From assembly GCF_000148645.1 (NCBI RefSeq), contig NC_014541.1, forward strand, positions 2,813,139 to 2,877,138: a stretch of DNA of 64,000 bases. The letters are read 5' to 3'. How positions within the stretch are numbered: position 1 is the stretch's first letter; the number at the start of each line of letters is the position of its first letter. Origin of the DNA: Ferrimonas balearica DSM 9799 (lineage in GTDB: Bacteria; Pseudomonadota; Gammaproteobacteria; Enterobacterales; Shewanellaceae). A model generated the notes under the pieces. It searched no databases and had not been told where the DNA came from. It saw nothing but the letters and a program-made list of their open reading frames with translations. Positions 55,780 to 58,633 of the stretch are shown here, in pieces. Both the position numbers and the translations under genes were made by a program.

Positions 55780-55855
55780 TGGCGTCCCCTAGGGGATTCG
55801 AACCCCTGTTACCGCCGTGAAAGGGCGGTGTCCTAGGCCTCTAGACGAAGGGGAC
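55780..55855 (-). tRNA. tRNA-Glu(TTC), copy 1
   Basis: 76 nt including an encoded CCA end. Acceptor GTCCCCT pairs with AGGGGAC; the anticodon loop reads CTTTCAC with anticodon TTC, and the T-arm is GGTTCGAATCCC. This is the promoter-distal end of the array, directly before the stacked terminators. All nine Glu copies appear identical. Confidence 0.97.
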
Positions 55856-55911
55856 CCCGGACTCACCGTTTAGTCTCTGGTGATAAGAGTGATTGCCGAA
55901 ACAACCAAAAT

Positions 55912-55990
55912 TGGTGGAGCTAACGGGTGGTGCGACACTCGCTCGAACCGCCTTTTGTTAGGTCCAATCGGTTGCCGAAACAACCAAAAT
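55912..55990 (-). pseudogene. tRNA-Ala 3'-end remnant, copy 1
   Basis: On the minus strand this ends TTAGCTCCACCA like a tRNA-Ala acceptor end and contains a broken T-arm (GGTTCGAGCGAG). The anticodon and D-arms are missing. It is followed by the same spacer as the intact Ala genes. Confidence 0.65.
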
Positions 55991-56066
55991 TGGTGGAGCT
56001 ACGCGGGATCGAACCGCGGACCTCTTGCATGCCATGCAAGCGCTCTCCCAGCTGAGCTATAGCCCC
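55991..56066 (-). tRNA. tRNA-Ala(GGC), copy 1
   Basis: 76 nt with encoded CCA. Acceptor GGGGCTA pairs with TAGCTCC; the anticodon stem-loop CTTGCATGGCATGCAAG shows anticodon GGC. The GGC isoacceptor is also the type found near gltX in E. coli (alaX/alaW). Confidence 0.97.
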
Positions 56067-56072
56067 AGGATT

Positions 56073-56148
56073 TGGTGGGCGATACCGGGCTTGAACCAGT
56101 GACCCCCTGCTTGTAAGGCAGGTGCTCTCCCAACTGAGCTAATCGCCC
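56073..56148 (-). tRNA. tRNA-Val(TAC), copy 1
   Basis: 76 nt with encoded CCA. Acceptor GGGCGAT pairs with ATCGCCC; the anticodon stem-loop CCTGCCTTACAAGCAGG shows anticodon TAC. Matches the valU/X/Y type near gltX in E. coli. It lies 6 nt from the neighbouring Ala gene. Confidence 0.97.
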
Positions 56149-56198
56149 AAATCCAGGTTGGCGTGCTGATATAAAGGCGTATCAACATACCGAATAAG

Positions 56199-56274
56199 TG
56201 GCGTCCCCTAGGGGATTCGAACCCCTGTTACCGCCGTGAAAGGGCGGTGTCCTAGGCCTCTAGACGAAGGGGAC
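56199..56274 (-). tRNA. tRNA-Glu(TTC), copy 2
   Basis: Same 76-nt gene as copy 1, offset by exactly 419 bp; part of a tandem duplicate block. Confidence 0.97.
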
Positions 56275-56330
56275 CCCGGACTCACCGTTTAGTCTCCGGT
56301 GATAAGAGTGATTGCCGAAACAACCAAAAT

Positions 56331-56409
56331 TGGTGGAGCTAACGGGTGGTGCGACACTTGCTCGAACCGCCTTTTGTTAGGTCCAATCGGTTGCCGAAAC
56401 AACCAAAAT
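56331..56409 (-). pseudogene. tRNA-Ala 3'-end remnant, copy 2
   Basis: Nearly identical to remnant copy 1 (one visible base change, GACACTTG for GACACTCG), again offset by 419 bp. Confidence 0.65.
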
Positions 56410-56485
56410 TGGTGGAGCTACGCGGGATCGAACCGCGGACCTCTTGCATGCCATGCAAGCGCTCTCCCAGCTGAGCTATAGCCCC
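56410..56485 (-). tRNA. tRNA-Ala(GGC), copy 2
   Basis: Same gene as Ala copy 1 within the duplicated 419-bp block. A 6-nt spacer separates it from Val copy 2. Confidence 0.97.
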
Positions 56486-56491
56486 AGGATT

Positions 56492-56567
56492 TGGTGGGCG
56501 ATACCGGGCTTGAACCAGTGACCCCCTGCTTGTAAGGCAGGTGCTCTCCCAACTGAGCTAATCGCCC
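56492..56567 (-). tRNA. tRNA-Val(TAC), copy 2
   Basis: Same gene as Val copy 1 within the duplicated block. Confidence 0.97.
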
Positions 56568-56617
56568 AAATCCAGGTTGGCGTGCTGATATAAAGGCGTA
56601 TCAACATACCGAATAAG

Positions 56618-56668
56618 TGGCGTCCTGTTCGGATGCGCCCCGCTACCGTCGTGCTAATTCCGCGGTGT
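56618..56668 (-). pseudogene. eroded tRNA-Glu remnant
   Basis: Starting TGGCGTCC like the 3' end of tRNA-Glu, it aligns with the T-arm, variable and anticodon-stem region (CTACCGTCGTG for TTACCGCCGTG; CGCGGTGT for GGCGGTGT) but carries many changes and lacks the 5' half. It sits where a Glu gene would be expected. Confidence 0.6.
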
Positions 56669-56716
56669 ACAAACACTGCAACTCGACCGAAGCGTCTGCC
56701 CTAAGGCAAGAATGCG

Positions 56717-56792
56717 TGGCGTCCCCTAGGGGATTCGAACCCCTGTTACCGCCGTGAAAGGGCGGTGTCCTAGGCCTCTAGACGAAGGGGAC
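56717..56792 (-). tRNA. tRNA-Glu(TTC), copy 3
   Basis: Intact Glu gene beside the eroded remnant, followed by the common spacer GGACTCACCGTTTAGTCTC. Confidence 0.97.
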
Positions 56793-56848
56793 CCCGGACT
56801 CACCGTTTAGTCTCCGGTGATAAGAGTGATTGCCGAAACAACCAAAAT

Positions 56849-56924
56849 TGGTGGAGCTACGCGGGATCGAACCGCGGACCTCTTGCATGCCATGCAAGCG
56901 CTCTCCCAGCTGAGCTATAGCCCC
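56849..56924 (-). tRNA. tRNA-Ala(GGC), copy 3
   Basis: Intact Ala gene; the block containing it lacks the 3'-end remnant seen beside copies 1 and 2. Confidence 0.97.
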
Positions 56925-56930
56925 AGGATT

Positions 56931-57006
56931 TGGTGGGCGATACCGGGCTTGAACCAGTGACCCCCTGCTTGTAAGGCAGGTGCTCTCCCAACTGAGCTAA
57001 TCGCCC
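56931..57006 (-). tRNA. tRNA-Val(TAC), copy 3
   Basis: Intact Val gene, 6 nt from Ala copy 3. Confidence 0.97.
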
Positions 57007-57057
57007 AAATCCAGGTTGGTGTGCTGATATAAAGGCGTATCAACAAACCATAAATAG

Positions 57058-57133
57058 TGGCGTCCCCTAGGGGATTCGAACCCCTGTTACCGCCGTGAAA
57101 GGGCGGTGTCCTAGGCCTCTAGACGAAGGGGAC
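57058..57133 (-). tRNA. tRNA-Glu(TTC), copy 4
   Basis: Intact Glu gene at the start of a Val-Glu block without Ala. Confidence 0.97.
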
Positions 57134-57172
57134 CCCGGACTCACCGTTTAGTCTCTGGTGATAAGAGAAAAG

Positions 57173-57248
57173 TGGTGGGCGATACCGGGCTTGAACCAGT
57201 GACCCCCTGCTTGTAAGGCAGGTGCTCTCCCAACTGAGCTAATCGCCC
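57173..57248 (-). tRNA. tRNA-Val(TAC), copy 4
   Basis: Intact Val gene with a different 3'-side spacer (GAGAAAAG) from the Ala-linked Val copies. Confidence 0.97.
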
Positions 57249-57294
57249 TTATTCGTGTCGACAGCTCGCCTAAGCAAACCATCTGAGAATAAAG

Positions 57295-57370
57295 TGGCGT
57301 CCCCTAGGGGATTCGAACCCCTGTTACCGCCGTGAAAGGGCGGTGTCCTAGGCCTCTAGACGAAGGGGAC
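57295..57370 (-). tRNA. tRNA-Glu(TTC), copy 5
   Basis: Intact Glu gene, end of a Val-Ala-Glu block in transcription order. Confidence 0.97.
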
Positions 57371-57426
57371 CCCGGACTCACCGTTTAGTCTCTGGTGATA
57401 AGAGTGATTGCCGAAACAACCAAAAT

Positions 57427-57502
57427 TGGTGGAGCTACGCGGGATCGAACCGCGGACCTCTTGCATGCCATGCAAGCGCTCTCCCAGCTGAGCTATAGCC
57501 CC
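57427..57502 (-). tRNA. tRNA-Ala(GGC), copy 4
   Basis: Intact Ala gene preceded on the plus strand by the GATTGCCGAAACAACC spacer. Confidence 0.97.
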
Positions 57503-57508
57503 AGGATT

Positions 57509-57584
57509 TGGTGGGCGATACCGGGCTTGAACCAGTGACCCCCTGCTTGTAAGGCAGGTGCTCTCCCAACTGAGCTAATCGCCC
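57509..57584 (-). tRNA. tRNA-Val(TAC), copy 5
   Basis: Intact Val gene, 6 nt from Ala copy 4. Confidence 0.97.
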
Positions 57585-57634
57585 AAATCCAGGTTGGTGT
57601 GCTGATATAAAGGCGTATCAACATACCGAATAAG

Positions 57635-57710
57635 TGGCGTCCCCTAGGGGATTCGAACCCCTGTTACCGCCGTGAAAGGGCGGTGTCCTAGGCCTCTAGA
57701 CGAAGGGGAC
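57635..57710 (-). tRNA. tRNA-Glu(TTC), copy 6
   Basis: Intact Glu gene; with Val copy 6 and Glu copy 7 it repeats copies 4/4/5 at a distance of exactly 577 bp. Confidence 0.97.
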
Positions 57711-57749
57711 CCCGGACTCACCGTTTAGTCTCTGGTGATAAGAGAAAAG

Positions 57750-57825
57750 TGGTGGGCGATACCGGGCTTGAACCAGTGACCCCCTGCTTGTAAGGCAGGT
57801 GCTCTCCCAACTGAGCTAATCGCCC
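57750..57825 (-). tRNA. tRNA-Val(TAC), copy 6
   Basis: Intact Val gene in the second Val-Glu block, flanked by the same spacers as Val copy 4. Confidence 0.97.
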
Positions 57826-57871
57826 TTATTCGTGTCGACAGCTCGCCTAAGCAAACCATCTGAGAATAAAG

Positions 57872-57947
57872 TGGCGTCCCCTAGGGGATTCGAACCCCTG
57901 TTACCGCCGTGAAAGGGCGGTGTCCTAGGCCTCTAGACGAAGGGGAC
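57872..57947 (-). tRNA. tRNA-Glu(TTC), copy 7
   Basis: Intact Glu gene; the plus-strand spacer that follows is shortened and leads into an Ala remnant. Confidence 0.97.
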
Positions 57948-57984
57948 CCCGGACTCACCGTTTAGTCTCTGGTGATAAGAGAAT

Positions 57985-58063
57985 TGGTGGAGCTAACGGG
58001 TGGTGCGACACTCGCTCGAACCGCCTTTTGTTAGGTCCAATCGGTTGCCGAAACAACCAAAAT
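57985..58063 (-). pseudogene. tRNA-Ala 3'-end remnant, copy 3
   Basis: Third copy of the 79-bp Ala-like fragment, again directly next to an intact Ala gene. Confidence 0.65.
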
Positions 58064-58139
58064 TGGTGGAGCTACGCGGGATCGAACCGCGGACCTCTTG
58101 CATGCCATGCAAGCGCTCTCCCAGCTGAGCTATAGCCCC
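58064..58139 (-). tRNA. tRNA-Ala(GGC), copy 5
   Basis: Intact Ala gene between remnant copy 3 and Val copy 7. Confidence 0.97.
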
Positions 58140-58145
58140 AGGATT

Positions 58146-58221
58146 TGGTGGGCGATACCGGGCTTGAACCAGTGACCCCCTGCTTGTAAGGCAGGTGCTC
58201 TCCCAACTGAGCTAATCGCCC
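58146..58221 (-). tRNA. tRNA-Val(TAC), copy 7
   Basis: Intact Val gene, the most promoter-proximal Val. Confidence 0.97.
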
Positions 58222-58271
58222 AAATCCAGGTTGGTGTGCTGATATAAAGGCGTATCAACATACCGAATAAG

Positions 58272-58347
58272 TGGCGTCCCCTAGGGGATTCGAACCCCTG
58301 TTACCGCCGTGAAAGGGCGGTGTCCTAGGCCTCTAGACGAAGGGGAC
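58272..58347 (-). tRNA. tRNA-Glu(TTC), copy 8
   Basis: Intact Glu gene next to a diverged spacer (58348-58442) that is unique in the array. Confidence 0.97.
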
Positions 58348-58442
58348 CCCGGACTCACCGTTTAAGCTCTGGTGATATGAGCAGCATCTTGTCGATGCGA
58401 CACCACCGTCATTGACCATGGTGCTTGCCCGAAGGCAAATAG

Positions 58443-58518
58443 TGGCGTCCCCTAGGGGATTCGAACCCCTGTTACCGCCGTGAAAGGGCGGTGTCCTAGG
58501 CCTCTAGACGAAGGGGAC
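58443..58518 (-). tRNA. tRNA-Glu(TTC), copy 9
   Basis: Intact Glu gene, second in transcription order. A GGGGCCGC/GCGGCCC hairpin lies between it and Ala copy 6. Confidence 0.97.
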
Positions 58519-58557
58519 CCGGACAACAAGGGCCGCGTTGGCGGCCCCTTAGAAAGT

Positions 58558-58633
58558 TGGTGGAGCTACGCGGGATCGAACCGCGGACCTCTTGCATGCC
58601 ATGCAAGCGCTCTCCCAGCTGAGCTATAGCCCC
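58558..58633 (-). tRNA. tRNA-Ala(GGC), copy 6
   Basis: First tRNA gene transcribed from the promoter at 58679-58707. The 5' leader is about 38 nt. Confidence 0.97.

Follow-up and report, generated by a model that had tools for sequence, protein, structure and literature searches.

In Escherichia coli K-12, the glutamyl-tRNA synthetase gene gltX is flanked by tRNA genes on both sides, in the order alaX-alaW (GGC), gltX and valU-valX-valY-lysV (Val UAC), and there is no Glu tRNA gene in the region. We have analyzed a 64,000-nucleotide stretch of the Ferrimonas balearica DSM 9799 genome (the window; bases 2,813,139-2,877,138 of a single 4,279,159-base contig), where the same Ala(GGC) and Val(UAC) isoacceptors accompany a gene that we take to be gltX. 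The arrangement differs from that in E. coli, in which two Ala and three Val genes form separate, opposite operons without Glu, in that here 22 tRNA genes are co-directional and Glu is the commonest kind. The initial annotation of this DNA had likened the array to a three-way association of these tRNAs at E. coli gltX; Ala(GGC) and Val(UAC) do flank gltX there, but with Glu missing the association is two-way. The array itself is an amplified and merged operon, large but in line with those of relatives, and its unexpected part is a pseudoknot predicted in the leaders of most of its Glu genes.

A tRNA array unit has been defined as at least 20 tRNA genes at a density of at least 2 per kb (Tran et al. 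2016, as quoted in the accessible text of PMC5966550). The array of F. balearica lies above both limits, with 22 genes in 2,854 bases, or 7.7 per kb. The Mycobacterium arrays described in the accessible text of PMC5966550 contain many isotypes and are redundant with genes located elsewhere, whereas here only three isoacceptors are present and the array is their sole source found. The gltX arrays of Shewanella and Paraferrimonas comprise the same genes, with predicted leader pseudoknots before many Glu genes, and the 12 Shewanella loci examined have the same promoter layout. They differ in that Val, where seen, lies divergently upstream, in their lower copy numbers and in that some Shewanella are without the pseudoknot.

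To our knowledge, the common view of natural pre-tRNA leaders is that they are short and, apart from inhibitory hairpins, unstructured. According to the accessible text of PMC9433436, E. coli RNase P acts slowly on leaders with G(-2)G(-1) since these bases pair with the 3′ RCCA, C(-4) is favorable, and an engineered stem-loop, introduced into the distal leader, keeps upstream bases out of inhibitory structures. Most Glu leaders described here likewise have G(-2)G(-1) and C(-4) next to the cleavage site, and a distal structure that could sequester upstream RNA, but that structure is a natural, predicted and covarying pseudoknot before most Glu genes rather than an engineered stem-loop. In a pseudoknot RNA that is cleaved by RNase P, a biotin aptamer (accessible text of PMC12710915), the aptamer itself is the substrate, whereas here the pseudoknot is a leader element of a natural pre-tRNA.

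The array was located by ARAGORN in the window, by Rfam tRNA matches and by comparison of copies:

55780..58633, minus strand: tRNA array of 22 genes (9 Glu TTC, 7 Val TAC, 6 Ala GGC)

Its first gene is Ala(GGC) (58558-58633), downstream of gltX, and the transcription order is Ala-Glu-Glu followed by Val-Ala-Glu (five times) and Val-Glu (twice). The number of genes, the 9/7/6 counts, the single strand and the order had all been given in the initial annotation and are confirmed by the ARAGORN copy count. Its statement that all genes are intact holds for the 22 genes, which score 60-68 bits with the Rfam tRNA model (cut-off 29); the spacers additionally contain decayed relics. All nine Glu copies are 100% identical to each other, as are all seven Val and all six Ala copies. 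At least 121 tRNA genes are present in the genome, 22 in the array and 99 that ARAGORN found in 33 other Rfam-flagged stretches, the total being a lower bound because the best 150 of 191 candidates of the Rfam search were scored. None of the 99 genes outside the array is Glu, Val-TAC or Ala-GGC, and when a Glu gene was used as a direct genome query, nine matches were obtained, every one inside the array. Thus, the array is the sole source found of tRNA-Glu, for which TTC is the only isoacceptor found, of tRNA-Val(UAC) and of tRNA-Ala(GGC). Other kinds form homogeneous arrays in the same genome as well, among them Lys (9 genes), Met (9), Gly (6) and Arg (6); the Glu/Val/Ala array is the longest.

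Comparison of the spacers revealed a conserved structure that the initial annotation did not see. An H-type pseudoknot is predicted in the 34 nt before eight of the nine Glu genes, all except the first, whichever gene precedes Glu (Ala, Val or Glu). Stem 1 is formed by CTCT/AGAG and stem 2 by TCACC/GGTGA, with the 5′ strand of stem 2 located within the loop of stem 1. On the 3′ side, an A-rich loop 3 (e.g., ACTAAAC) is followed by the 7-nt linker GTCCGGG and then by the mature tRNA. The first Glu gene is preceded by a GC-rich hairpin in place of the pseudoknot, as judged by spacer comparison and folding. The predicted elements are as follows:

58348..58381, minus strand: leader pseudoknot and GTCCGGG linker, Glu gene 2 (predicted)
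57948..57981, minus strand: leader pseudoknot and linker, Glu gene 3 (predicted)
57711..57744, minus strand: leader pseudoknot and linker, Glu gene 4 (predicted)
57371..57404, minus strand: leader pseudoknot and linker, Glu gene 5 (predicted)
57134..57167, minus strand: leader pseudoknot and linker, Glu gene 6 (predicted)
56793..56826, minus strand: leader pseudoknot and linker, Glu gene 7 (predicted)
56275..56308, minus strand: leader pseudoknot and linker, Glu gene 8 (predicted)
55856..55889, minus strand: leader pseudoknot and linker, Glu gene 9 (predicted)
58530..58548 (within 58519-58557), minus strand: GC-rich hairpin between first Ala and first Glu, at the usual pseudoknot site

When the window leaders were searched with Rfam 15, only tRNA reached its gathering score; tmRNA_permuted overlapped some leaders below threshold (18-21 bits, cut-off 47). 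At 11 further loci, again only tRNA reached the gathering score, with one Leu_leader row below the cut-off. Full-text literature searches, whose coverage left out many subscription papers, returned no description of a Glu leader pseudoknot.

The structure was evaluated with 144 distinct leaders, which represent 219 ARAGORN Glu genes of Ferrimonas, Paraferrimonas, Shewanella and Parashewanella loci and were taken irrespective of structure. A score of 20 is reached by 103 of them (32/38 in Ferrimonas, 2/3 in Paraferrimonas and 69/103 in Shewanella and Parashewanella), compared with 36 of 720 dinucleotide shuffles. This set, being based on ARAGORN positions, includes arrays with variant Glu genes (e.g., loci L016, L020, L028, L177 and L195), which were missing from earlier sets (84, 99 and 54 anchored leaders) where Glu genes were recognized by a sequence pattern. 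Arrays outside the motif definition have new stem-2 pairs: GATAC/GTATC and GGTAC/GTACC occur within one array (L195), GATACG/CGTATC in L016 and ATTTAC/GTAAAT in L028 and L177.

Covariation of stem 2 is evident in the selected leaders. A full 5-bp stem 2 is formed in 47 of the 54 anchored leaders, and in 27.7% when the 3′ half is taken from another leader. Two alignments, of 53 leaders and of a stricter 38 (36 distinct), were picked from the 84 distinct leaders after the motif had been seen, with first-gene and non-fitting leaders omitted, so that their values lean toward structure. In the larger one, stem 2 is paired in 81.9% of cells, 25 distinct stem-2 5′ strands are found among the 51 leaders that fold, and both stems together have 58 double-change cells, against 23.5 ± 3.7 after shuffling and no more than 33 when the partner strand is slid. 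In the stricter one, all five stem-2 pairs contain double changes, and the covariation score is 0.44 (0.23 shuffled).

We also built a covariance model, R1, that describes stem 2 together with sequence and, being built from chosen leaders, misses divergent forms; thus, it recovers none of the six Glu genes of L177, though all four distinct leaders of this locus fit by score. A genome search with R1 (E up to 1; best 150 of 660 candidates scored) yielded eight matches, all abutting Glu genes. None was obtained when the other tRNA stretches of the genome and a ribosomal operon, 55,464 bases in all, were searched in full. Per array, R1 detects 8/9 Glu genes in the window, 9/10 in genome G006 and 7/8 in genome G012. 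Over 34 loci, 79 of 88 matches abut a Glu gene and none abuts another tRNA gene. Of the nine non-Glu matches, one is cut by a contig end. The other eight lie in long Glu-Glu spacers of Shewanella (L036, L037, L178 and L183) with no tRNA gene following, and are probably relics of lost Glu genes.

An alternative is that the leader element is a repeated sequence spread by concerted evolution and has no structure, and leaders are indeed near-identical within one genome. Yet stem-2 sequences vary between genomes while the pairing persists, and the slid-partner controls fall below the true pairing, which makes a repeat without structure very unlikely. We are therefore confident, as far as comparative folding models allow, that the leader pseudoknot exists.

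By the same models, the Glu leader pseudoknot is present in Ferrimonas, in Paraferrimonas and in many but not all Shewanella. It is carried by leaders of S. insulae (L016) and S. benthica (L037); the S. decolorationis locus L024 seems to be without it. Across the order, R1 with stricter filters has matches in 4 of 99 genomes, all of the same family. Genomes G014 and G022 of this family have no R1 match, yet G014 leaders fit by score; R1 thus under-reports, and its lack of matches outside the family is weak evidence of absence. In Glu leaders of Alteromonas, Idiomarina, Bowmanella, Catenovulum and similar genera, no motif was seen by eye, and two leaders reach 20 by other pairings. A long plain hairpin near the tRNA 5′ end was seen by eye at gltX loci of Alteromonas, Paraglaciecola and Bowmanella (L055, L067, L071, L074 and L079).

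A pseudoknot preceding all tRNA genes of the genome was considered and rejected: among 39 distinct leaders of other arrays, seven fit (three Arg, two Gly, one Tyr and one Met, the last in a Met-Gln cluster), and there are no fits in the Lys, Asp, Asn and main Met arrays. Of these, the Arg fits were traced in relatives, and Arg(ACG) leaders of the F. balearica group do fit an H-type pseudoknot (L145, at G000 944900-946150, L207, L208 and L209), with CCCC/GGGG and GTGGC/GCCAC as stems and GTGAC/GTCAC in L209. Overall, scores of 20 or more were obtained for 13 of 93 distinct Arg leaders and for 8 of 465 shuffles; nine of the 13 leaders are from these four loci.

We next consider the origin of the array, for which the genes around it serve as markers:

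58716..60149, minus strand: gltX (glutamyl-tRNA synthetase), directly upstream of the array, same strand (ORF, relatives, E. coli gltX order)
54790..55431, plus strand: tesA-like esterase open reading frame (ORF), converging on the array
60600..61832, plus strand: ORF resembling a major facilitator superfamily (MFS) transporter, upstream of gltX

The name gltX, which is partly an assumption of ours, agrees with the E. coli gene order; the other two we presume to be a tesA-like esterase and an MFS-like transporter. In 80 named gltX loci, Val(TAC) is divergent upstream in 58, Ala(GGC) is downstream in 74 and Glu is downstream in 39. Among the 22 loci in which no upstream Val was seen, some are cut off so near gltX that it could have been missed (e.g., L040 and L074). 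Val is downstream of gltX on the same strand at only two of the 80, L006 and L007, both Ferrimonas by GltX identity. L006 (NZ_JAHVJZ010000003.1) is recorded as Marinobacter nauticus; with a GltX 97% identical, it is probably a misnamed Ferrimonas. The window contains no tRNA gene from 58633 to its end, so the divergent upstream Val of relatives is not present here. The proposal of the initial annotation that an ancestral gltX-linked cluster was amplified is thus supported both by the E. coli order and by the 80 loci.

The order MFS, Val(-), gltX(+), Ala-Glu(+), tesA is found in Paraferrimonas and in Ferrimonas G001 and G008 (pieced together from two or three contigs in the latter two), and the contig ends of G004, G005 and G009 agree with it. 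No full gltX match was found in the drafts G004, G005 and G009 (best 42-43% over part of the protein); gltX, flanked by two repeat arrays, probably lies on a small contig that dropped out of the assembly. In the closed genome G012, the whole gltX/tRNA block is inverted. In G000, G003 and G006 the order is MFS, gltX(+), mixed Ala-Glu-Val(+), tesA, with no upstream Val, and the draft G011 likewise carries Val inside the array but not upstream. No upstream Val was seen in the drafts G002, G007, G010 and G013, which are counted as merged on that ground. Interspersed Val is, by this comparison of gene orders, a derived feature of some Ferrimonas. The two arrays flanking gltX, Val divergently upstream and Ala-Glu downstream, would have come into one direction and merged, and we infer that one inversion of the gltX/Ala-Glu segment, starting from a G012-like order, could yield the merged one. 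The gltX tree is compatible with one merger and prefers two changes, with one change in 49% of bootstraps; in its labels, L015 counts as split though it has no Val within 6 kb, and the four drafts above count as merged.

Turnover inside the array is evident from segmental duplications, one at an offset of 419 bp (434/442 identical) and others at offsets of 577/578 bp (352/358 and 333/340 identical). Two kinds of relics were found in the spacers:

56618..56692 (approximate limits), minus strand: relic of a decayed Glu-like tRNA gene, in a 149-nt spacer between Glu and Val (local score 37, maximum 31 in 200 shuffles)
57982..58029, 56328-56375 and 55909-55956, minus strand: Ala-like 3′ relic in spacers (score 29, shuffled maximum 27)

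The Ala-like relic is weak by score and is backed by its repeated flank. Genes of G003, G006 and G012 differ from those of the window at 0-2 positions, except for one G003 Glu variant with five differences, and spacers are alike within one genome and divergent between genomes. Repeated spacers within genomes together with near-invariant genes can be read as the outcome of gene conversion and of unequal exchange. After the merger, the order would have been shuffled, and the copies kept identical, by conversion and by duplications of 419- and ~577-bp units.

The gene numbers were compared with how often each amino acid is used in the ribosomal-protein operons (26 ORFs with 3,792 codons, identified by reading; secY left out). 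Met was omitted, its initiator and elongator genes being unseparated. For the remaining 19 amino acids, tRNA gene number follows usage with a Pearson r of 0.90 (Spearman 0.86). The residuals are +2.1 genes for Glu (z 1.6), +0.8 for Val (z 0.65) and -0.8 for Ala (z -0.6), the largest being that of Tyr (+3.1, z 2.5). The array copy number thus appears to be governed mainly by translational demand. Demand for Glu, Val and Ala decoding had been one of two reasons offered in the initial annotation; the gene numbers follow ribosomal-protein use as it would require, while selection itself remains a correlation.

Alternatively, the array may have expanded by recombination drift, repeats begetting repeats, with copy number nearly neutral above a minimum. 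The recent segmental duplications, the decayed relics, the order that varies among the resolved Ferrimonas arrays (G000, G003, G006 and G012) and the spacers alike within but unlike between genomes would all be expected. Drift does not predict, however, that copy number per amino acid tracks usage, that the number of Glu genes varies only from 6 to 10 across the 12 genomes that are single contigs in a sample of 40 from the family, or that closed Ferrimonas genomes, despite different orders, have totals of 21-22 of these genes (G000 22, G006 22, G012 14+7). We therefore regard drift as an unlikely, though not a negligible, explanation. With demand as the preferred account, the array presents a sole-source operon of essential tRNAs that has been merged, shuffled and homogenized while its dosage stayed near constant, and the closed Ferrimonas genomes make this constancy testable.

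The second reason offered in the initial annotation, extra Glu-tRNA for tetrapyrrole (heme) synthesis through HemA, would suit an iron-respiring bacterium, and F. balearica is reported to respire iron(III) (accessible text of PMC3035368); Glu also lies above the copy/usage line. Its excess is moderate, however, and smaller than that of Tyr, Val and Ala are amplified too, and the Lys, Met, Gly and Arg arrays of the same genome are likewise homogeneous. Since demand accounts for the bulk of the gene number, a special supply for heme need not be invoked, and we give this explanation very little weight. That the copy number is an artefact of assembly is likewise very improbable: contigs do break within the array in most related Ferrimonas drafts, but the independent single-contig genomes G006 and G012 carry arrays of 22 and 14+7 genes, and the present genome, if the strain is F. 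balearica PAT, was finished from Sanger reads with 8-kb and fosmid libraries (accessible text of PMC3035368).

Signals for transcription were found at both ends of the array:

58679..58707, minus strand: promoter TTGACT-17-TAAAAT with GCGCC discriminator, upstream of first Ala (consensus scan and conservation)
55622-55765 (hairpins within 55630-55765), minus strand: three tandem intrinsic terminators with a 55-bp period (tandem repeat and folding)

The promoter sits in the 82-base gap between gltX and the first Ala gene. Of 31 gltX-Ala gaps examined, which are part of the collected loci, 29 share the -10 element and AATGCGC, including all 11 from Ferrimonas and all 12 from Shewanella; those of Paraferrimonas L014 and Moritella L041 do not. 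The consensus scan is uninformative alone (one site, 1.2 expected by chance), and the promoter call therefore rests on conservation. A -35/-10 pair with a GC-rich discriminator is typical of stringently controlled stable-RNA promoters, and the array promoter is probably of this type. The terminator hairpins have predicted energies of -18 to -21 kcal/mol, and each is followed by T7; they were identified by folding, as a pattern-based terminator scan returned none at the array end. The triple terminator may provide a heavy stop ahead of the converging gene. With a conserved promoter before the array and three terminator hairpins after it, all 22 genes are likely to be on one transcript. At the first Ala-first Glu site of G003, G006 and G012, a hairpin with a short T run was seen by eye; such a hairpin resembles an attenuator that might allow the first Ala tRNA to be produced alone.

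The predicted pseudoknot ends 7 nt before the cleavage site, just beyond the positions, -6 to -1, at which the E. coli leaders were varied (accessible text of PMC9433436). In 99 of the 144 leaders a GG end is combined with C at -4, and for the window leaders folding predicts pairing of the leader G bases with the CCA end. These features led us to propose that the distal leader is fixed and a short linker presented at the RNase P site. The pseudoknot would hold the distal leader of the dense precursor in place and keep the preceding tRNA out of the way, leaving a short, defined single-stranded linker, 7 nt long up to the mature tRNA, at the site of RNase P action. We also considered a regulated switch that would gate tRNA-Glu maturation by ligand or protein binding, with GltX, glutamate or a tetrapyrrole metabolite opening or blocking the RNase P site. 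A riboswitch has a ligand-binding core with near-invariant residues and an expression platform; in the chosen leaders GA(G) and AA(A) are near-invariant, and the GTCC linker is present in 102 of 144 leaders. The literature covered by our searches contained no description of such control of tRNA maturation. If true, Glu-tRNA supply would be tuned gene by gene after transcription, but we think a switch highly improbable. A variant in which the GTCC linker pairs with the acceptor 3′ GGAC was rejected: in the window leaders the predicted pairing of positions -7 to -4 does not exceed 0.34, and many leaders are without the linker.

Taken as a whole, the reading that we favor, and consider probable, is that of a polycistronic operon behind gltX, the sole source found of its tRNAs, with dosage set mainly by demand, arisen by merging of two arrays and carrying putative processing elements in its Glu leaders. 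A number of results count against it. The transcript, the pseudoknot and the processing are all predicted, and the case for selection on dosage is correlative. A few GC hairpins in front of first genes, that of the first Glu of the window included, are scored as fits, and stem 1 is the weaker stem, with double changes in only two of four pairs. No leader reaches score 20 in Shewanella L021, L024, L029, L031 and L190 or in L034, L180, L182, L184, L186 and L187, and one of six does in L196, so part of the group either never had the element or has lost it. The GTCC linker is likewise absent from 42 of the 144 leaders, and a single origin of the merged order was set aside because the gltX tree is too weakly resolved. 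In E. coli, bases before -4 affect kinetics little and leader stem-loops can inhibit (accessible text of PMC9433436). Finally, insulation by the pseudoknot was simulated by forcing its bases to be single-stranded in the presence of 160 nt of upstream RNA, and the acceptor-stem probability decreased in five of eight cases, rose slightly in two and was unchanged in one; when the upstream RNA was omitted, the increase did not exceed 0.004, in folding that does not model pseudoknots. Since this test does not support insulation, we put forward tentatively that the pseudoknot serves in pre-tRNA processing, close to the step carried out by RNase P. A leader pseudoknot near the RNase P site predicts selection on leader architecture in dense arrays, and we consider it to matter more than the array.

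Among the flanking genes, the tesA-like gene contains one in-frame TGA in two Ferrimonas (G011:C2:39217-39855 and G001:C11:3141-3740).

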